Positions 198 to 41,244 of a DNA stretch of 41,244 bases are shown one piece after another. Source of the stretch: a virus; the IMG/VR virus record IMGVR_UViG_3300023444_000003, positions 1 to 41,244 of that record. The stretch is one strand, 5' to 3'. Position numbers and translations under genes: made by a program. The notes beneath the pieces are model-generated. The model made no database searches. It was not told the origin of the DNA and saw only the letters and a program-made list of their open reading frames with translations. Each line of letters begins with the position of its first letter. Within the stretch, counting starts at the first letter, position 1.

Positions 198-213
198 GGT
201 GATATCATAATGA
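196..213 (+). repeat. 18-nt duplicated translation leader, copy 1
   Basis: AAGGTGATATCATAATGA occurs here and again exactly at 1628-1645. In both places it supplies the ribosome-binding site and start codon of a small gene, and it contains the perfect palindrome TGATATCA. Confidence 0.8.
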
Positions 214-362
214 CTAAATTAAAAGTTGTATACATTAGATGCTGGACTTGTGTTGGTAATGGCTTGGTTAGTGTTGTGATTCACAATAAATGTTGGGGTA
301 CTGCTAAATGTACAGATTGTAACGGAACTGGCAAAATAAAAGCAGGTGCTAAAAATGATTAA
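210..362 (+). CDS. DnaJ-like zinc-finger small protein (50 aa)
   Basis: The 50-aa product has two CxxCxGxG-type knuckles: CWTCVGNG at residues 11-18 and CTDCNGTG at 34-41, with a further Cys at 28. This is the zinc-knuckle signature of the DnaJ cysteine-rich region, also found in many small phage proteins. It probably binds one zinc ion; its partner is unknown. The start uses the duplicated AAGGTGATATCATA leader. The stop overlaps the next start (ATG at 355), showing translational coupling. A full DnaJ is excluded because there is no J domain. Confidence 0.7.
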   Translation: MTKLKVVYIRCWTCVGNGLVSVVIHNKCWGTAKCTDCNGTGKIKAGAKND

Positions 363-468
363 ACCACATCTTATATCTAAAAAAGAATTCTATAAACGCG
401 GTGGATTTAGTAACCCGAAATGTTTTCGTAAACATAAAAATGATTGTTGGTATTATTATTCTTATTAA
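355..468 (+). CDS. Small basic hypothetical protein (37 aa)
   Basis: ATG at 355 lies inside the end of the zinc-knuckle gene and the frame stops at 468. The 37-aa product reads KKEFYKRGGFSNPKCFRK in its middle and ends in an aromatic run (CWYYYSY). It is basic, and the GGFSNPKCFR core looks like a conserved short phage motif, though I cannot name the family. The coupled start and tight packing support it as a real gene. Confidence 0.55.
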   Translation: MIKPHLISKKEFYKRGGFSNPKCFRKHKNDCWYYYSY

Positions 469-481
469 AGGGGATTATAAA

Positions 482-811
482 ATGATTGCACACTATAAAG
501 TTATTATTAATGGTACTGATTCAGGCATAATTGAAACAAATTTACCTTATGCACGCGAATACTGGGAAAAACAGTCGCTTAAAACGAACAAAAGAATACA
601 TTTATCTGCTGTTTATTACGAACCTAGCGAAATAGAAAGATTACATTTTGACAGCGTAATATCATTATTATGGAAACCACAAAACGAAGACCATGACAAA
701 TTGGAAACAGCCTTGATATCTATGAAAATGGCAGTGGCACATAGTTCTGATAATATGGAATTATTGGACGAGCTAGAATTTCTAATCGAAAACTGGAGTT
801 TACAAAAATGA
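482..811 (+). CDS. Hypothetical protein (109 aa)
   Basis: The start at 482 is preferred over an upstream in-frame alternative because AAAGGGG lies 9 nt before it and the upstream extension would run through the previous gene. The product (MIAHYKVIINGTDSG...) is soluble, with a beta-rich first half and a helical acidic second half (residues about 75-109). No catalytic motif is evident. Its TGA overlaps the ATG of a 25-codon frame at 808. It belongs to the rightward early operon; function unknown. Confidence 0.65.
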   Translation: MIAHYKVIINGTDSGIIETNLPYAREYWEKQSLKTNKRIHLSAVYYEPSEIERLHFDSVISLLWKPQNEDHDKLETALISMKMAVAHSSDNMELLDELEFLIENWSLQK

Positions 812-885
812 GTTATTACATAATTAAACTAAAATCTATTAATTGTGGCTTTGAAGATTATCCATTACATTTAATAACCAACTAA
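808..885 (+). CDS. Possible 25-aa micropeptide
   Basis: ATG at 808 overlaps the preceding stop as ATGA, and the frame ends at 885, just before the ribosome-binding site of the gene at 901. The peptide is MSYYIIKLKSINCGFEDYPL followed by five residues. Only the coupling and the otherwise empty 90-nt gap support it. Confidence 0.35.
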   Translation: MSYYIIKLKSINCGFEDYPLHLITN

Positions 886-900
886 CTGGAGTACATTAAA

Positions 901-1326
901 ATGAGAGAACAAAATTTTACGCCAATACTAATATTTTCTGTTACTAATAAAGAAAACAAAGGAACACTAGCCGAAGAAATAGCATATAGTGCCGTCATAT
1001 CGCGTCTTAATTCAGCTGGTATTCCATTTAAGAAAACATTAGGTGTTTATAATAACGAAGAACCAGAAAAGGGATTTGTAGTTACTAATATTAATGCAGA
1101 ACATTATGATTTAGTTTTATCAATAGCTAAAGAATATAAACAAGAAAGCGTTTTCATATCTGATAGATTTAGGAACGCTTATTTAATGTTTCTTGAGATT
1201 GAATCTACTGAAAAAATCGGTGTGTTACATAATAATGGCAAAGTTAAGCCTAATAAAGATTATACATTAGATGTTAAAACAGGAAATTATTTTACTGTTA
1301 TTGATGTTGCGGCGTTAACCACATAA
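901..1326 (+). CDS. Hypothetical protein (141 aa)
   Basis: ATG at 901 is preceded by ACTGGAG at a good distance. The 141-aa protein starts with a hydrophobic strand (TPILIFSVTN), then NKGTLAEEIAYSAVISRLNSAGI, an alternating alpha/beta pattern, and ends in a beta-rich segment. There is no membrane segment, signal peptide or recognisable active site. It is the largest product of the left operon. Early phage proteins of this size often modify host functions, but nothing here shows which. Confidence 0.7.
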   Translation: MREQNFTPILIFSVTNKENKGTLAEEIAYSAVISRLNSAGIPFKKTLGVYNNEEPEKGFVVTNINAEHYDLVLSIAKEYKQESVFISDRFRNAYLMFLEIESTEKIGVLHNNGKVKPNKDYTLDVKTGNYFTVIDVAALTT

Positions 1327-1408
1327 AAAATGTAGCTTCATATTGTCCTATCCATTACGCAAAAGGATTCGCGTATACTTGGGCAAAAACATTACAGGAG
1401 ATAATACT

Positions 1409-1642
1409 ATGTGTGTACAAGTTAAAAACACAGCCACTAGTCAACTGACTGACACTAATAAACATGTAATCTTATATTTAGAATATTGGATAAACTGGCT
1501 TACTATCAATTCTTTTTGTGAATATCACGAAATGAGTTCTAAACGTGCGTCTATTGAAATTAATAAGGGTCGTATGATTCGAGAATCAGATTTTGGTATT
1601 TTGGCTTCCACACTGGCGGTTAAATATAAGGTGATATCATAA
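1409..1642 (+). CDS. Small protein with a possible helix-turn-helix (77 aa)
   Basis: The start at 1409 is chosen because ACAGGAG ends 8 nt upstream; a longer frame to 1343 has no ribosome-binding site. Residues about 33-58 read INSFCEYHEMSSKRASIEIN then KGRMI, which fits the spacing of small helix-turn-helix proteins of the excisionase/AlpA kind (first helix, turn at MSS, recognition helix, then KGR-hydrophobic). This is pattern reading only. If correct it is a candidate regulator or excisionase for a phage that carries an integrase. The TAA at 1640-1642 overlaps the next ATG. Confidence 0.6.
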   Translation: MCVQVKNTATSQLTDTNKHVILYLEYWINWLTINSFCEYHEMSSKRASIEINKGRMIRESDFGILASTLAVKYKVIS

Positions 1643-1645
1643 TGA
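1628..1645 (+). repeat. 18-nt duplicated translation leader, copy 2
   Basis: Exact second copy of AAGGTGATATCATAATGA (first at 196-213). Here it forms the end of the 77-aa gene and the start region of the gene at 1642. Confidence 0.8.
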
Positions 1646-1881
1646 AATATCACATTCAATTTCTTCATGAGTCTATCATATCGGGTGAACTAATTCCGGC
1701 GTGTGGTTCAGACAGTGTTCACCCTTTAGACGGTAGACTTAAATTATCTAATATGATTAGAACTGCAAAACTACAAATTGAAAGTCTAAAAAGTGTACAA
1801 CAATATAAACATTTTGAAATTCATCAAGGCAATTTACGGCATAGTAGAATAATATACACTAATTATAAGGAATTAACATAA
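1642..1881 (+). CDS. Hypothetical protein (79 aa)
   Basis: The start at 1642 uses the duplicated AAGGTGATATCATA leader and overlaps the previous stop. The product begins MKYHIQFLHESIISGELIP and is mildly basic towards its end, with no motif I can name. Its stop (TAA) shares a base with the next ATG at 1881. It is part of the coupled rightward operon. Confidence 0.6.
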   Translation: MKYHIQFLHESIISGELIPACGSDSVHPLDGRLKLSNMIRTAKLQIESLKSVQQYKHFEIHQGNLRHSRIIYTNYKELT

Positions 1882-2021
1882 TGTTAACTAAACCACAAAT
1901 ACGTAAAAAGACTATTAAATGTAAAAGACAGTTCGTTATGTTTCATCATGCTAAAAATGATATGGGTTTACTACCCACAACTTTAGCATGTAGTAGTTTA
2001 ACACGGGAACAAAAATTATGA
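1881..2021 (+). CDS. Small basic hypothetical protein (46 aa)
   Basis: ATG at 1881 follows AAGGAATTAACATA, and the frame runs to TGA at 2019-2021. The 46-aa product has a strongly basic first third (KPQIRKKTIKCKRQF), two cysteines and two adjacent histidines, so a small nucleic-acid- or metal-binding role is possible but unproven. It overlaps the following gene by ATGA. Confidence 0.55.
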   Translation: MLTKPQIRKKTIKCKRQFVMFHHAKNDMGLLPTTLACSSLTREQKL

Positions 2022-2197
2022 ATTGTCCACACTGTGATAATCATTTCCGTTCGACTGATGTTAAGATTACAGAATCAAGAGCAATTAAAAATGAAAACTT
2101 AGGTTTTGTATTTTGCCCAAATTGTCAAAAACAAATTGTAGTAAAAATTACACAAACTTTAACTCCAATCGGATACCACAGACGTGACACTGACTAA
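2018..2197 (+). CDS. Zinc-ribbon small protein (59 aa)
   Basis: Two CPxC knuckles, CPHC at residues 3-6 and CPNC at 33-36, are spaced as in a classical zinc ribbon (C-x2-C-x26-C-x2-C) with beta-rich flanks. Zinc ribbons of this kind bind nucleic acid or polymerase subunits. This is the last gene of the rightward operon, started by ATGA overlap and followed 17 nt later by an intrinsic terminator. The target is unknown. Confidence 0.7.
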   Translation: MNCPHCDNHFRSTDVKITESRAIKNENLGFVFCPNCQKQIVVKITQTLTPIGYHRRDTD

Positions 2198-2213
2198 AAA
2201 CTATACCCTCCTT

Positions 2214-2239
2214 AGCGGTCGTTTAGGCCGCTCTTTTTT
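2214..2239 (+). terminator. Intrinsic terminator of the rightward small-gene operon
   Basis: AGCGGTC (2214-2220) pairs with GGCCGCT (2226-2232; one G-U pair) around a 5-nt GTTTA loop and is followed by C and six Ts. It sits 17 nt past the last stop codon, in the sense of transcription. Confidence 0.85.
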
Positions 2240-2455
2240 GTTTCCCTGTCTAAGCCATTAATATTCTACAATACCTCACAGCCTATCAGCTCCCTAAGCC
2301 TGACCCGTTTATTTGAATTCAGTTTTACCCGTCGGATACAAAAAACTCACAATAAGCTTAAAATCTCCCTGTTTTTTTAAAATCGAATTACCGAACTAAG
2401 TTCAAGTAGCAGTTAACGCAGTGCTGTTTACTTTACTTTAGTAAAGGAAGTAGCT

Positions 2456-2532
2456 TAATGTCTATTAAATTCAATGCATTAGCATACGATTCACTAAGCA
2501 TACGTGCAACCGTATGAATTTAATAGACATTA
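2456..2532. repeat. 18-bp perfect inverted repeat with 41-nt loop carrying AGCATACG iterons
   Basis: The left arm 2456-2473 (TAATGTCTATTAAATTCA) is the exact reverse complement of 2515-2532. The 41-nt loop contains AGCATACG twice and a smaller CATACG/CGTATG dyad (2499-2504 with 2511-2516). It could form a cruciform or a long RNA stem, or be a paired protein-binding site. Confidence 0.85.
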
Positions 2533-2766
2533 TACCCCTTTATCGTGCTAAACCGCTTCTGGGGTTTTATCGATTAAATAGCCATATATAGACCTTTATC
2601 ACCTATAATCCCTGTCCCTAAATCCCCGCCAATAATACCTAGATATAGCCACATTTAAGACAAAATCTACAGGCTACCAGCCCCAATATTGAGCTGAAAA
2701 CAATTTGATTTTAGATTATAAAGTATGCTAACATTCAATTTATATAATCAATTCTACAGGTGGAGC

Positions 2767-3261
2767 ATGACTGGAACTGAACAACAATTATTAGAAGTGG
2801 TACTGAATATACAAAAACAATTAACTGAACTGATAAATTACAACTCTAAAGCAGAGAAAAAACGCCGGGCAAATAGAAAACCCAAAGCAAAAAATACAAT
2901 GTTAATGACTAATATGGACGTCATTTTACCTGAAATGGTTAAGGTATTATCTGAGTTTAGTGGTGAATGTTCACTTAATAGGATGGCCGTTAGAATAGCC
3001 GAACACATAAAACAGCCTAAGAAAAAAGTCCAAACAATACGAAACTTAATGAAAGTGTGGCTTAAAAACCCCGTCATCTACAGCGGTGTGAGAATAAGTC
3101 TTATCAATAAGGCCAAGCCAACGTTTAAAGGTGCTGGTACGTGCTTATATTGGATTACAGGCACTAAAATGAGTACATCGAGTAAGAACGACGCGGGATA
3201 TCTGATACAGGACGGCTATTCTGACGACTCTACAGCACCAGAAATTGATATATTTTCATGA
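2767..3261 (+). CDS. Free-standing paralogue of the helicase C-terminal domain (164 aa)
   Basis: The start at 2767 is chosen for the AGGTGGAGC just upstream; a longer frame from 2725 adds 14 residues but has no ribosome-binding site. Residues about 25-45 are very basic (KAEKKRRANRKPKAK). Residues 65-132 align without gaps to residues 450-517 of the phage helicase at 4476-6071, with 23 of 68 identities by hand count (SGEC.LN.M...AE, QT.RN..K, G.G and WI.G). Both proteins end in DIFS. The domain looks helical with a beta wing, so a winged-helix-like DNA- or partner-binding role is inferred. It may regulate replication from the adjacent repeat region. It has no ATPase motifs. Confidence 0.7.
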   Translation: MTGTEQQLLEVVLNIQKQLTELINYNSKAEKKRRANRKPKAKNTMLMTNMDVILPEMVKVLSEFSGECSLNRMAVRIAEHIKQPKKKVQTIRNLMKVWLKNPVIYSGVRISLINKAKPTFKGAGTCLYWITGTKMSTSSKNDAGYLIQDGYSDDSTAPEIDIFS

Positions 3262-3425
3262 TTATTCGTGAGCCTAAATATGGGATGACAAATAAGGACG
3301 TTTTTCGTTTAGCAAAATACGCCATCAGGCAAAGAGACTGCGGCCACTATGAATTGTACGCTAAAATAATGCAATCCGCCGAAGCAGCAGCCCGGCGAAT
3401 AAGGGTTCTTAAGAAAAGGATTTAG
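3258..3425 (+). CDS. Small basic hypothetical protein (55 aa)
   Basis: ATG at 3258 overlaps the previous TGA as ATGA and the frame ends at 3425. The 55-aa product is basic and probably all helical (VFRLAKYAIRQRDCGHYELY, then AAARRIRVLKKRI at its end). Its stop overlaps the stop of the leftward gene at 3422 by a few bases, so two operons converge here without a visible terminator. Function unknown; coupling to the helicase-domain paralogue suggests a joint role. Confidence 0.55.
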   Translation: MIIREPKYGMTNKDVFRLAKYAIRQRDCGHYELYAKIMQSAEAAARRIRVLKKRI

Positions 3426-7049: not shown

Positions 7050-7537
7050 ATTAAATCACCTATTTTGTTGTCAAACGATTTTCTAGCACAACAAGCAAGA
7101 AAAAAATCCTTGCCTGAATATAAATTAAATTTTTCTCTATTAACAATAGCTAGGGCTTTGAAATTTGAACCCCTAATTGTCACGCCGCATATACCTGTTT
7201 TACTACATTTAAACACCGTTCTATTAAAGTTTTGTAACATAGGAGTTGTGTCTCGTAAATTGTTAAACGGATTATTAAGGCCATCATTATCTTTATGGTC
7301 TATGGTTCCCTTCGGCCAATTACCTGTCTCTATCAGCCAAATTAATCGATGAACGTAATAGCTTTTACCTTCAAAGTTTAATCGTCGGTATGTTGTTTTC
7401 TTATCTTTGTCCCTGTGTAAATGTCCCGCTTCTTTTCCCGCGAGCCATTTATTTTTATAGGATTCAGGCCAATATAATTTACCACAGGGTGAATCATATT
7501 CAAAACAATCTAATAACCTGTATATAAAAGCTTTCAT
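7046..7537 (-). CDS. HNH homing-type endonuclease (163 aa)
   Basis: The core VHRLIWLIETGNWPKGTIDH followed by KDNDGLNNPFNNLRD is the HNH signature of phage free-standing endonucleases (His at VHR, the IDH pair, then NxxxNLR at about residues 63-95). The C-terminal part (TGICGVTIRGSNFKALA...) resembles the AP2/NUMOD-like DNA-binding module often fused to this HNH type. It would make a site-specific break in DNA and may move into related phages; its target is not visible. It is coupled to both neighbours by ATGA, so if it arrived by homing it has merged into the operon. Confidence 0.85.
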   Translation of the reverse strand: MKAFIYRLLDCFEYDSPCGKLYWPESYKNKWLAGKEAGHLHRDKDKKTTYRRLNFEGKSYYVHRLIWLIETGNWPKGTIDHKDNDGLNNPFNNLRDTTPMLQNFNRTVFKCSKTGICGVTIRGSNFKALAIVNREKFNLYSGKDFFLACCARKSFDNKIGDLI

Positions 7538-11602: not shown

Positions 11603-12205
11603 TTAAGCGAAAGGGTCTTCTTCTGGTTCGTCGCCTTCTTCATCTGTAGTTTTACTGTTGAAGTCTTCGTCTTCTAGTAAATCTTCAAAATCAGATTCGG
11701 CACTTGAGCCACCCGCTAAGGGTTCACCATCAGCTACTTTGATAATGTTGTTTAGATAAAAGGTAACGCCCGGGGCCATGCTTTCGCCTTCATACGCTGC
11801 CGGAACTACAGTTGCTTTGCAATAACAACCAGAATACAGTTCTGAAGTGTCTAAGATAGGTACAAAAGCACCGTTAACAATTTCAGTAACTTGTGGTTTG
11901 CGTGTGCTTGTGCAGTTCATTAACGTATTGCCGTCGATGTAACCTTCATATTCATAATCACCTTGGTCTTTAAATGGTGATTTTAGACGTTTGGGTTTCT
12001 TTTTACCCCATTGATTTTTTACGCAATCTTGAGCGGCGGCTTTTAATTTTGATAAATCTGCATCTTCATCAAATAGCATAGCTGCACTAAATTTTGGTTT
12101 ACCGGTGGAATTCTGATGTACTTTAGCTTCGAACACACCATTTGCAAACGCTAATCGGAATACGGGTGTTAATAATTTCTCACCCACGTAGTTTTTCTTG
12201 GCCAT
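11603..12205 (-). CDS. DUF2815-type single-stranded DNA-binding protein (200 aa)
   Basis: The start at 12205 (MAKKNYVGEKLLTPVFRLAF) has CAGGAGACAAATAAC upstream; a longer frame adds 15 residues. The body fits DUF2815, phage proteins thought to be OB-fold ssDNA-binding proteins comparable to T7 gp2.5. The last 45 residues are very acidic and end EEDPFA, like the acidic tips of SSB proteins that recruit partners. It lies 1 nt after a DUF2800 nuclease, the usual gene pairing. Expected to coat ssDNA during replication and recombination. Confidence 0.8.
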   Translation of the reverse strand: MAKKNYVGEKLLTPVFRLAFANGVFEAKVHQNSTGKPKFSAAMLFDEDADLSKLKAAAQDCVKNQWGKKKPKRLKSPFKDQGDYEYEGYIDGNTLMNCTSTRKPQVTEIVNGAFVPILDTSELYSGCYCKATVVPAAYEGESMAPGVTFYLNNIIKVADGEPLAGGSSAESDFEDLLEDEDFNSKTTDEEGDEPEEDPFA

Positions 12206-12206
12206 G

Positions 12207-13382
12207 TTATTTGTCTCCTGTTTTTTGGTTAAGTAATTCTTTGAAATCAACTTCAGCAGAACTAGCCACTTCTGGTGATTTATGGTCTTGTGGTACTAGG
12301 TTAGTTCCCGAAGATTTGCTTAAAATAAATTTAGATAAAAATTTAACATGCTCTTTACCTAATACTTTTTCAACTTGTGCGGGTGTTTTTATGTCTTCCT
12401 TAAAACATTTTGCAATTTCATCCTTGCTTAATTTTTTAAGCATTTTACGCATGTGTGTAGCGTCACCATTCCAACTACGTGATGCACGTTTAGCAACCAA
12501 TTTAAAACCGGGTGTTTTAACGCCGACATTCGCTTGATTCCATGCAAAATTTTGAACCGACTTAATCCAAGTTTTAAGTAATTCAGCCATGGTTAAAGCT
12601 TTACTTAGTTCATCGGTGTCATAAGGTAATTCTTCAGCGAATTCAATTTTCATAGCTTCATTTGCTGTACGAATTAATTCAGGACATTTAATTGCACCGG
12701 GACAGAATTGGCAATGGTCACCTGAAACTAATGGTGCATTTTCTTCTTCTGTTGCTAAAGCAGCATTATATAAATCGACTGCAAAGTCCATTAATTCACC
12801 CGGTGTTACATCTTGATACCGGATTATGCCTTCTTCACATGGAATCCGTGGCTGAATTATTTTAATACGAACTTTTTTTACTTCATAACCGATACTCTGT
12901 AAAGCTAACAATGCACCCAAGCCATAATATTTAAGCTGTGGATTATCTTCAACTTCTACAAAAAGACCAGCCCCGTATTTTAAATCAGTGACTTCGAGTA
13001 CTTGGCTTTCCATGTCGTATATGAAATCATCATTAGTACCAAAAAAAAGTTCATGAACAGAAGACATTTCAAAACTGAATTCCGTTTCGTGTATTGACCC
13101 GTTTTTGCATTCTTTTTCTACGCGACGTATTTCATCAACGTATTCTTGAATGTATTCTGCCATTTCAAGAGTGAATTCTACACCATTTTCAGCAATCAAA
13201 CCTACATACCTGCGGGTTTTTTCCTGACCACCTTTTAGTGTACATTCTGCTAGTTCATGTGCCGCCGTTCCTTCTTCAGCAGCAGCAGAACTATGATTAG
13301 GCATACCTTCGGCCATAGTCACGGAGCCAGCACACGTCATCCAACGTTTAGCTGAACTGGCCCCTAATTTAGAATGAATCAT
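12207..13382 (-). CDS. DUF2800 PD-(D/E)XK nuclease (391 aa)
   Basis: The DUF2800 pattern is clear: an N-terminal HSKLGASSAKRWMTCAGS, EGTAAHELAEC (candidate catalytic Glu), GTNDDFIYD, and VTDLKYG, the D-x-K of a RecB/Cas4-like PD-(D/E)XK fold. Later cysteines (CQFCPGAIKCPEL, about residues 218-230) may with the N-terminal Cys bind an iron-sulphur cluster or zinc as in Cas4/AddB-like nucleases. It probably resects DNA ends for recombination with the DUF2815 protein that follows. It starts 3 nt after the acidic/basic linker protein. Confidence 0.8.
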   Translation of the reverse strand: MIHSKLGASSAKRWMTCAGSVTMAEGMPNHSSAAAEEGTAAHELAECTLKGGQEKTRRYVGLIAENGVEFTLEMAEYIQEYVDEIRRVEKECKNGSIHETEFSFEMSSVHELFFGTNDDFIYDMESQVLEVTDLKYGAGLFVEVEDNPQLKYYGLGALLALQSIGYEVKKVRIKIIQPRIPCEEGIIRYQDVTPGELMDFAVDLYNAALATEEENAPLVSGDHCQFCPGAIKCPELIRTANEAMKIEFAEELPYDTDELSKALTMAELLKTWIKSVQNFAWNQANVGVKTPGFKLVAKRASRSWNGDATHMRKMLKKLSKDEIAKCFKEDIKTPAQVEKVLGKEHVKFLSKFILSKSSGTNLVPQDHKSPEVASSAEVDFKELLNQKTGDK

Positions 13383-13385
13383 AAT

Positions 13386-13817
13386 TTAAAGCTCGGCTTC
13401 TAAAGCTTCTACTACTGCGGGATAATCATCGGAATCTAATTCACTTTGTTTATTAGCCCCGAATTTTTTCATGATACCAATTACAGTTTTTAAACCACTT
13501 TTGTTTGTGACTTTATGCATTAGCATCAAAACATCGTCTGATGTTACATCTTCTAAATCAGCATTTTCTTCCACTTCAGGTTCTTCAATCTTTTTAGGTT
13601 TTTTTGGAGCTGATTTTCCTTTGGCCTTTTTATCACGCTTCTTATTGCCTAATTTTTTACTAGATTTTTCGGGTTCTGGCTTATCTTCAATTTCGGGTGA
13701 TTCTTCAAAATCAGCATTAAAATCTGGTTCACCTTCTATTTTTGATTTAACAGAACGTACTATGGCATCACTAATAGCTTCCACAAAATTATTTACAGCA
13801 TTTTTTAAATCTGACAT
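13386..13817 (-). CDS. Low-complexity charged protein (143 aa)
   Basis: After a short helix (LKNAVNNFVEAISDAIVRSV) comes an acidic segment, then a Lys-rich run (KKLGNKKRDKKAKGKSAPKK) and another acidic block. Residues about 98-143 form a compact helical domain (KVTNKSGLKTVIGIMKKFGA...) like those ending several phage recombination and accessory proteins. The middle is likely disordered. It is the first gene after the promoter at 13859-13886 and heads the DUF2800-DUF2815-polymerase run, so it may help assemble the recombination or replication complex. Confidence 0.6.
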   Translation of the reverse strand: MSDLKNAVNNFVEAISDAIVRSVKSKIEGEPDFNADFEESPEIEDKPEPEKSSKKLGNKKRDKKAKGKSAPKKPKKIEEPEVEENADLEDVTSDDVLMLMHKVTNKSGLKTVIGIMKKFGANKQSELDSDDYPAVVEALEAEL

Positions 13818-13858: not shown

Positions 13859-13886
13859 ATTTTACACTATTGACAAATACAGTCAA
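13859..13886 (-). promoter_or_regulatory. Leftward sigma70-type promoter with overlapping operator dyad
   Basis: Read leftward: -35 TTGACT (13886-13881), 16-nt spacer, -10 TAAAAT (13864-13859), 42 nt before the ATG at 13817. A perfect dyad TTGAC-N7-GTCAA (13870-13886) covers the -35 box and part of the spacer. The same GAC-N7-GTC architecture recurs at 40770-40826. Confidence 0.65.
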
Positions 13887-17977: not shown

Positions 17978-18124
17978 ATGAAGGCTACATTTATTTTATT
18001 AATTATTTTACTAACAGGTTGTGCAGGTTCATCTATAGATTTAATAGAAACGGCTTTTGATAATGGCTGCAATATTAAATCATTCACTGAACGTGGTTCG
18101 ATGACAAAAATAGAGTGTAAATAG
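17978..18124 (+). CDS. Small lipoprotein (48 aa)
   Basis: ATG at 17978 follows CAGGAGTTAACACA. MKATFILLIILLTGCAGSSI has a clean lipobox (LTGC, Cys15), so the mature 34-residue peptide would be lipidated. The mature part holds two more cysteines (NGCNIKSFTERGSMTKIECK) that could form a disulphide in the periplasm. The stop shares a base with the integrase GTG start. An o-spanin is unlikely because it is far from the lysis genes; a surface-exclusion lipoprotein is possible. Confidence 0.7.
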   Translation: MKATFILLIILLTGCAGSSIDLIETAFDNGCNIKSFTERGSMTKIECK

Positions 18125-18969
18125 TGGCTAGACCCTGTACAAGTTTAAGTGCTTTATGTACTAAATACGAAGAAACCTGTTCAGTAAAAAAGAAGACAGG
18201 CAAACAAGATGTGTACCGAATTAACAAGTACATTATTCCGTATTTTGGTAAAAGAACTCGGGTGTCAGATATTGATTATGAAAAAGTTTATAACTTTCAT
18301 GAATCATTATCTAGCACCCCGTACTTAGCTAACAGATTATTAGCCTTGCTTAAAAATATTCTTAACATGTCCATATTATGGAAGTTTGTAGAAAAAGATT
18401 TCGAACCCTGTAAATATGTTAAGTATTTCAGGGAGTATAAACGCCGAAGAATACCTTCGGCTAATGAATTAGAAGAAATTCTAAAACATTTAAAATCGGA
18501 GCCTCATACGGGCTCCGTTTTATTTATAAATTTGCTGCTTTTCACGGGTGCTAGACCTTCTGAAATAGAACACGGGCTAAGGGCCAATATAAAAAATAAC
18601 ATATTAACCTTGAAGGAACACAAAACTGATAACACAGGTGAACCAAAAGAAATTTATATTCCCGATTTTTGTTTATCCATGATACGCGAATTGAGAACAC
18701 CGAATGATGGTTCTATAACTGGAATTAAAAGTCCCCGTAAGTTATGGGATAAAATACGTGTTAAAGTTGGTTGTGTTGATTTAAGACTTAGGGATTTAAG
18801 AAGACATTTTGCTAGTATAGCTCTCAACAATGGCGCATCACTAGACCAAATAGGGGAGATTCTGGGCCATAATTCAACCCAGACTACTAAATCATACGCG
18901 TGGATGTTGGAAAGTGTCGCTAAGGTTATAGTAGAGAATGTTAGTCAGTCAATAGCCGAATCGATTTAG
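18124..18969 (+). CDS. int: Tyrosine site-specific integrase (281 aa)
   Basis: It starts with GTG at 18124, sharing one base with the previous stop. Residues 1-100 are a SAM-like core-binding domain. The catalytic domain has GARPSE (R144), LRDLRRHF (R226; the usual His of HxxR is Arg223), LGHNS (H249) and SYAW (nucleophile Y258). It would integrate or excise the phage chromosome. No attachment site or tRNA fragment was found beside it, and its 3' end overlaps the convergent SPFH gene by 29 nt. A terminator-like hairpin lies inside the gene at 18497-18525. Confidence 0.9.
   Translation: MARPCTSLSALCTKYEETCSVKKKTGKQDVYRINKYIIPYFGKRTRVSDIDYEKVYNFHESLSSTPYLANRLLALLKNILNMSILWKFVEKDFEPCKYVKYFREYKRRRIPSANELEEILKHLKSEPHTGSVLFINLLLFTGARPSEIEHGLRANIKNNILTLKEHKTDNTGEPKEIYIPDFCLSMIRELRTPNDGSITGIKSPRKLWDKIRVKVGCVDLRLRDLRRHFASIALNNGASLDQIGEILGHNSTQTTKSYAWMLESVAKVIVENVSQSIAESI
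18497..18525 (+). terminator. Intrinsic-terminator-like hairpin inside the integrase gene
   Basis: CGGAGCC (18497-18503) and GGCTCCG (18511-18517) form a perfect 7-bp GC-rich stem with a 7-nt loop, followed immediately by TTTTATTT, in the sense of integrase transcription. It encodes the residues around SEPHTGSV. In this AT-rich genome the stem stands out. Confidence 0.65.
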
Positions 18970-40228: not shown

Positions 40229-40732
40229 TCAACTGAATATGTCATTGTCATGTGGGTCAAGTGATTTATAATCACCTGTACTACGCTCAATAACATCAAC
40301 AGTATCAATGACTTGATTGTCTTCGACTTCTTCATATTGTGCATTAACTATCAATAGCCTATTATTCGCATCGGCTAACGCCTTCTTGATATCGGGCTTA
40401 TCATTGATGTTTACATCCAGCTTAGTACCATACACTTTAGGATTCAGTACACCGCTGCGCCACTTACGAGCGTCTATCATGTTACGGGCTTTCTGTGGGT
40501 CTAATGTGTTATCAGCTATATTGATGATATCATCGGCTATAGAGTCAGCATGGTCTACCCGTGCGCGTTGATACAGCTTGTCAAACTCTCCATATGTCAT
40601 GCGCCACCTACGAACCGTTGATGCTTCAGGCATTCCTTCAGACTCTAAAACGGATTTAAGCGTTTCACCATTGGCTATGCGGCTGGTTATCACTTCAGCT
40701 ATAAATTGGGAATATGTGGAGGGAATCGACAT
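40229..40732 (-). CDS. terS: Terminase small subunit (167 aa)
   Basis: The N-terminal 55 residues include a helix-turn-helix (SRIANGETLKSVLESEGMPE, then ASTVRRWRMTYGEFDKLY), as in small terminases that recognise the packaging site. RARVDHADSIADDIINIADN and ARKWRSGVLNPKVYGTKLDV match the family core. The acidic tail ends DPHDNDIFS. It is the first gene of the leftward late operon, divergent from the small-gene operon. Confidence 0.85.
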   Translation of the reverse strand: MSIPSTYSQFIAEVITSRIANGETLKSVLESEGMPEASTVRRWRMTYGEFDKLYQRARVDHADSIADDIINIADNTLDPQKARNMIDARKWRSGVLNPKVYGTKLDVNINDKPDIKKALADANNRLLIVNAQYEEVEDNQVIDTVDVIERSTGDYKSLDPHDNDIFS

Positions 40733-40769: not shown

Positions 40770-40826
40770 GTGACAAAATGTGTCATGTATTGACAAAATT
40801 AGGCCCAAAGCGACAAAAATAGTCAC
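40770..40826. promoter_or_regulatory. Three phased operator-like sites (GAC-N7-GTC)
   Basis: Sites start at 40770 (GTGAC-AAAATGT-GTCAT), 40790 (TTGAC-AAAATTA-GGCCC, right half degenerate) and 40810 (GCGAC-AAAAATA-GTCAC), exactly 20 bp apart, so on one face of the helix. They lie between divergent terS and the rightward operon. A fourth, perfect copy of this dyad covers the promoter at 13859-13886. Confidence 0.65.
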
Positions 40827-40860
40827 GCACATAGTTTTTAAGTCTTTGATTGTTATATAT

Positions 40861-40892
40861 TTGAAGTTGGCACGTGGTATGCATTGTATAAT
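40861..40892 (+). promoter_or_regulatory. Candidate rightward promoter of the small-gene operon
   Basis: A perfect -10 TATAAT lies at 40887-40892, 30 nt before the ATG at 40923. The -35 is weak: TTGAAG (20-nt spacing) or TTGGCA (14-nt spacing), suggesting an activator or an atypical promoter. The operator triplet is just upstream. Confidence 0.5.
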
Positions 40893-40922: not shown

Positions 40923-41165
40923 ATGTTTAAATTCACTTATAACGGTCACGATTACAACTATGATTTTGAAAATAATACCTTAATCAATATTGAAGGTGTG
41001 AAAGTGGCTCGAGTTGAATTAGCGGCAGATTCTAATTTTGATGAATATAACTATTTCATTCATATAGAATCAAATGAAGTTATGCAATCTATACATGAGA
41101 ACGAAATTTTGTTTTCACAAAATCATGTGATATTAGCGGGATTATATGAAAGTTTTTACAACTAA
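40923..41165 (+). CDS. Hypothetical protein (80 aa), first gene of the rightward operon
   Basis: The start at 40923 (MFKFTYNGHDYNYDFENNTL) has AACAGGTAAATATAAA upstream; a longer frame would need a TTG start at 40884 inside the -10 box. The product is a small, acidic, probably beta-rich protein ending in AGLYESFYN. The gene continues across the circle junction to the same sequence at 1-48. Function unknown. Confidence 0.6.
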   Translation: MFKFTYNGHDYNYDFENNTLINIEGVKVARVELAADSNFDEYNYFIHIESNEVMQSIHENEILFSQNHVILAGLYESFYN

Positions 41166-41244
41166 TTGAGGTAAACAAAATGGAAATATTAGAAGAAATT
41201 GCATACAATCGTATAGAATGGGATTTTGATAATAATATTGAAAC
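41118..41244. repeat. Terminal direct repeat, right copy
   Basis: Identical to bases 1-127; marks closure of the circle. Confidence 0.95.
41180..41244 (+). CDS. 5' fragment of the 44-aa gene seen whole at 63-197
   Basis: ATG at 41180 corresponds to ATG at 63; the frame is cut by the window edge after 21 codons. It is the same gene, duplicated by the terminal overlap. Confidence 0.9.
   Translation, partial: MEILEEIAYNRIEWDFDNNIE

Follow-up and report, generated by a model that had tools for sequence, protein, structure and literature searches.

The window, an IMG/VR record of 41,244 bases analysed at its full length, carries the same 127 bases at both ends (1-127 are identical to 41118-41244), so the genome is circular as assembled, or terminally redundant, and its small-gene operon crosses the contig junction. 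Podovirus-type terminase, portal-like and internal-virion genes are present along with a tyrosine integrase (Table 1), and we describe the window as a circular, podovirus-like genome. The leftward structural genes begin with the terminase small subunit (TerS) at 40732. On the opposite side of the same intergenic region, a rightward operon starts with an 80-residue protein, for which no relative was found in our search, and runs across the junction (41118-41244 joins 1-127) into a series of small genes that probably belong to the same operon. One of these, labelled as a methyltransferase in PHROG, encodes a member of the S-adenosylmethionine (SAM) lyase family. SAM lyases are the kind of protein that phages use against restriction, and such a gene would fit an operon of early host takeover.

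The intergenic region contains three regularly spaced dyads. Exact GAC-N7-GTC dyads are located at 40772-40784 (GACAAAATGTGTC) and 40812-40824 (GACAAAAATAGTC), and the middle one at 40792-40804 (GACAAAATTAGGC) has one mismatch. The preliminary description had located these dyads and their 20-bp phasing correctly, with two exact copies and a half-degenerate one between them, although the matrix written there, GACAAAW-N4-GTC, contains one N too many. The consensus of the array is TGACAAnnnTTGTCA, and the pitch between box starts is exactly 20 bp. As had been noted, this box differs from the consensus boxes of the LexA, CRP and FNR families.

Downstream of the array and ahead of the first rightward gene, the DNA reads TTGGCACGTGGTATGCA and includes TGGCACG-N4-ATGCA at 40868-40883. 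When compared with the sigma-54 consensus YTGGCACG-N4-TTGC, this was the best match in the genome at 11/12, the next best being 9/12, and sites of at least 11/12 are expected 0.27 times per shuffled genome. The site qualifies by sequence as a sigma-54 (RpoN) promoter, for which RpoN-dependence is predicted, and transcription would start at approximately 40894. A TATAAT at 40887-40892, without a -35, could serve sigma-70. Counted from the predicted start, the dyads are repeated within about 70-150 bp upstream and on one face of the DNA, as in a bEBP enhancer (upstream activating sequence, UAS). An exact IHF consensus is positioned between the UAS and the promoter, where such a site is common, but not universal, in bEBP enhancers. 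Since the IHF pattern occurs at chance frequency (5 in the genome versus 5.3 expected), only its position is telling. The preliminary description had proposed an operator array; the sigma-54 promoter and the IHF site just downstream make it the enhancer of an activator and not an operator overlapping a promoter. The array itself is genuine and does not constitute a set of repressor operators.

Table 1. Features of the window. Centres are relative to the predicted start at ~40894; bit scores and genome ranks are from the pilin-trained matrix.
Feature	Coordinates	Strand	Details
PilR-type box 1, TGACAAAATGTGTCA	40771..40785	.	18.6 bits, rank 1 in genome; centre ~ -116
PilR-type box 2, TGACAAAATTAGGCC	40791..40805	.	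half-degenerate; 10.5 bits, rank 6; 20 bp from box 1; centre ~ -96
PilR-type box 3, CGACAAAAATAGTCA	40811..40825	.	13.3 bits, rank 3; 20 bp from box 2; centre ~ -76
Exact IHF consensus, WATCAANNNNTTR (AATCAAAGACTTA)	40839..40851	-	between array and sigma-54 promoter; centre ~ -49
Predicted sigma-54 (-24/-12) promoter, TGGCACGTGGTATGCA	40868..40883	+	GG-N10-GC exact; 11/12 consensus bases
First gene of driven operon	40923..41165	+	80 aa, no known family
Remaining rightward small genes	210..3425	+	~9 ORFs, from ORF list
SAM lyase family protein	901..1326	+	PF23780, 39.8 bits, cut-off 28
Terminase small subunit	40229..40732	-	phrog_1482, E 5.9e-32; divergent from array promoter
Isolated PilR-type box, TGACAAATACAGTCA	13871..13885	.	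14.5 bits, rank 2
Operon behind isolated box	11603..13817	-	143-aa protein, DUF2800/PD-(D/E)XK exonuclease, Enc34-type ssDNA-binding protein
Tyrosine integrase	18124-18969		

The bare GAC-N7-GTC dyad is not rarer than chance in this genome (4 found, 2.96 expected), and the significance of the array therefore rests on a motif learned independently from pilin promoters. One genome hit fell in a Rugamonas chromosome. We searched 246 genomes of the Rugamonas family for GACA-N5-TGTC, 30-60 bp and TGGCAC-N6-TGC, using the reversed pattern as a control. There were 18 matches against 2 for the control, and 10 of the 18 were immediately upstream of type IV pilin-type genes (GFTLIELMIVVAIIGILAA...). Across the class, the exact pattern was so strict that it found few matches, and a protein-anchored search took its place: to remove the bias of pattern searching, pilin genes were picked by protein alone in 104 genomes of the class, 30 upstream regions were retrieved and the 27 with a recognisable sigma-54 element were used. 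Palindromic EM from random starts on these 27 regions converged on TGACAAnnnTTGTCA. When the resulting matrix was run over the window, the three array boxes and the isolated box ranked 1, 6, 3 and 2, respectively, bearing out the earlier proposal of a two-turn-phased array for one regulator with all four sites sharing one motif; equal density of the motif inside genes was not observed. Among 300 dinucleotide-shuffled versions of the genome, the highest score was 18.07, below that of box 1, and 0 of 300 shuffles had three boxes at 20-bp pitch. One of 400 shuffled windows had a sigma-54 element of at least 10/12 preceded at a distance of 40-140 bp by a box of at least 13 bits. In the opposite direction, a matrix built from the boxes of other phages alone gave matches scoring 14 bits or higher in 10 of the 27 pilin regions versus 0.05 in shuffles. 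The correlation between the two matrices was 0.98, and three of the pilin promoters carry two boxes at a spacing of exactly 20 bp.

The box of the window matches the pilin-promoter box, and PilR binding is predicted. Pilin promoters are activated by PilR (PMC6058289, PMC3224663). In commensal Neisseria, where the PilR homologue Npa takes this role, the pilE promoter has a UAS, an RpoN site and, between them, an IHF site needed for full expression (PMC6528607). Given that PilR or a homologue activates pilin promoters and that the box is shared, PilR is identified by target-gene association, and the regulator of the array is most likely the PilR of the host. The 77-aa phage protein (1409-1642) that had been suggested as a candidate has no Pfam or PHROG match, and host PilR most likely takes its place. 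Separately, two bacterial genomes carry the same box and a sigma-54 element before a gene for a non-pilin exported protein (KVWFLGKVDGQGVYMNFAVNGIPGGNA), a possible further PilR target.

The same architecture recurs in other viral contigs. A first scan (GACA, 20 bp, GACA, 30-60 bp, sigma-54) gave a number of hits near chance and the full array in only some of them. L018 and L044 showed the full anatomy of dyads at 20-bp pitch, a gap of 40-45 bp and a sigma-54 element, with an exact IHF match in the spacer of L044, as also in L055, L059, L060 and ten of the single-box hits described below. The double-dyad pattern was present in 11 viral contigs, L018 and L044 included; a mirrored control gave 4 hits, and three of these belonged to a single sequence family. 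A single full box with a sigma-54 element gave 52 viral hits against 9 for the reversed box; almost all of the 52 were outside long ORFs, often with further boxes ~20 bp away, whereas 7 of the 9 control hits were inside long ORFs. No pilin gene lies behind any of the 52, which contain some near-duplicates and maybe a few host flanks of prophages and correspond by inspection to roughly forty distinct phages. Among the products encoded behind the viral promoters are the SAM lyase of the window, a reverse transcriptase, an anti-restriction protein of the ArdC type and small proteins without a known family. The ArdC-type gene is directly behind the box/sigma-54 promoter in L144 and about eight near-identical contigs, as is the reverse transcriptase gene (RVT_1) at 7434-8789 of L168. 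In the contig of L018, three consecutive sigma-54 elements of 11/12 each are downstream of three boxes (L203:17222-17402).

The densest case is G633 (IMGVR_UViG_3300038627_000004; L211/L212), which has six joint box/sigma-54 promoters dispersed over 30 kb versus 0.0025 expected. One more box pair, the seventh, lies at 7313-7349 in front of a sigma-54 element that is weaker. Its genes include a phage-type primase, a polymerase, an ssDNA-binding protein (SSB), an exonuclease and a terminase small subunit, and by its promoter sequences it looks like a phage-wide sigma-54 regulon. Several of its promoters share the near-identical element TGGCACGGTATCTGCA. In G001, the promoter points away from a terminase-like gene (188-aa protein, weak PHROG match, E 6e-4), and in G004 it is divergent from an unassigned 198-aa gene adjoining the large terminase, whose terminase likeness is by position only.

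The fourth dyad of the window, 13872-13884, is inside TTGACAAATACAGTCAA. As the preliminary description had it, this copy lies over the -35 of a leftward promoter: the box overlaps TTGACT-16-TAAAAT, which is sigma-70-like, and half of the site is the -35 hexamer. A score as high as that of this site would turn up about 0.22 times in each shuffled genome (roughly once per five) and is not significant alone, and no sigma-54 element was found near the box. In G633, a full box-pair/sigma-54 promoter precedes a homologous Enc34-type ssDNA-binding protein gene, which makes shared control of the replication operon plausible. The idea that one regulator serves both operons thus holds as far as the site matches the box, and is weakened by the missing sigma-54 element and the score; joint control with the small-gene operon is plausible on sequence grounds. 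If PilR binds here, the geometry suggests that it would block sigma-70 RNA polymerase.

Relatives of the window by large terminase (TerL) are MW202898, DSL-LC05 and the Pseudomonas phages AF and UFJF_PfDIW6, the nearest found having TerL identity of at most 57% and TerS identity of at most 40% (36-57% overall for TerL/TerS). The nearest TerL relatives do not have the promoter arrangement, and no such promoter was present in the five cultured phages AF, UFJF_PfDIW6, DLP1, DMS3 and LUZ19, where DLP1 and DMS3 are pilus phages and LUZ19 was covered at its left end (first 8 kb). L004 carries a sigma-54-like site of 10/12 that is oriented away from its TerS gene and lacks a full box, which is only suggestive. 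Searches of phage records with the arrays by BLASTN gave chance matches only, and early-gene proteins of the array phages, used as queries, reached no array-bearing record.

Based on these features, the array is very probably the UAS of a sigma-54 phage promoter that copies a host pilin enhancer and would place early transcription under the PilS-PilR/RpoN system of the host. The degenerate middle box, the TATAAT at 40887-40892 and the lack of the array in the five cultured phages and the nearest TerL relatives weigh against this reading. The sigma-54, IHF and UAS elements do not by themselves name the activator, and in the Rugamonas family two matches stand before a gene for a surface protein other than a pilin. 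Both points would fit an enhancer that serves a different NtrC-family activator of the host, or a paralogue of PilR recognising the same box. We consider this unlikely, since outside phages the box with a sigma-54 element is found mainly before pilins, which in the cases studied are activated by PilR or a homologue (PMC6058289, PMC6528607, PMC3224663).

The boxes could instead be operators, as originally proposed, through which a phage repressor or activator controls sigma-70 promoters; this would agree with the divergent intergenic location, with the overlap of the isolated box and a -35, and with the TATAAT at 40887. The array also resembles CI, Cro or Arc-type operator arrays in having several phased dyads in a divergent intergenic region, but its boxes are upstream of the core promoter and match a host activator motif, and no adjoining repressor was identified. 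Considering that the same box was found independently before host pilin genes, that other phages keep a similar 40-45 bp gap to the sigma-54 element and that weak sigma-70 matches are no commoner than in shuffles, such operators seem very improbable. A chance arrangement in an AT-rich genome, to which the frequency of the GAC-N7-GTC dyad alone and the commonness of the IHF consensus would lend some colour, is scarcely credible, because the joint occurrence of box and sigma-54 element was seen in 1 of 400 shuffles at relaxed thresholds, with the 20-bp pitch not yet counted, and because the architecture recurs across phages in excess of control patterns.

In the preferred PilR/sigma-54 model, the array would copy the enhancer of a host type IV pilin gene, with PilR as the proposed activator. 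IHF would bend the spacer between the array and the promoter, the AAA+ hexamer of PilR would remodel RNA polymerase-sigma-54 at the promoter element, and transcription would open on the rightward small-gene operon of host takeover and anti-restriction, from 40923 to ~3425. The boxes, their spacing, the sigma-54 element, the IHF consensus, the identity with the pilin box and the recurrence in many phages can be read from the DNA itself; we infer that PilR is the protein acting here, that it activates, that the operon is early, and that the host is piliated and its pili serve as the phage receptor.

The closest known systems are the PilS-PilR/RpoN pilin promoters, namely pilA of Pseudomonas, pilA1 of Xylella and, with Npa, pilE of commensal Neisseria. 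Like the pilin promoters sampled, the window has UAS boxes of TGACAAnnnTTGTCA, which are sometimes 20 bp apart in those promoters, and a GG-N10-GC sigma-54 element, and like pilE it has an IHF site between the UAS and the sigma-54 element. Unlike them, it drives phage genes, those of the SAM lyase operon, and not pilin. The usual view is that phages rely on the housekeeping sigma factor for their early promoters, which can then fire at once. As with the early promoters annotated at the left end of LUZ19, which use host sigma-70, the host RNA polymerase would transcribe the incoming phage operon, but because sigma-54 promoters stay off until an ATP-dependent activator works on them, expression here would require a particular, named signalling state of the host. 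We found no description of phage PilR/RpoN promoters in open-access papers.

With a promoter that cannot fire in the absence of RpoN and an activated two-component regulator, the phage would couple its programme to the state of its probable receptor. Resistance mutations in pilR or pilS are usually explained by receptor loss, and the finding offers a second reading of them. In phage PO4, locked-active PilS, and not pilin overexpression, restored susceptibility, and its authors noted that replication may require PilR activation (PMC13170266). PO4 belongs to the phiKMV-like phages, and in LUZ19, another of these, the early promoters are annotated as sigma-70 promoters, so the PO4 case may have another cause. 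Taken more broadly, we lean, with moderate confidence, towards a widespread group of tailed phages having moved early transcription (of anti-restriction, SSB and other genes) onto host PilR and sigma-54, in one phage apparently for most early promoters, such that these genes would fire only in pilus-making cells, those that such phages could enter by the pilus. PilS raises PilR activity upon pilin depletion, and thus, if this is true, the phage promoter would be stimulated further if pilus assembly were blocked once the phage is inside.
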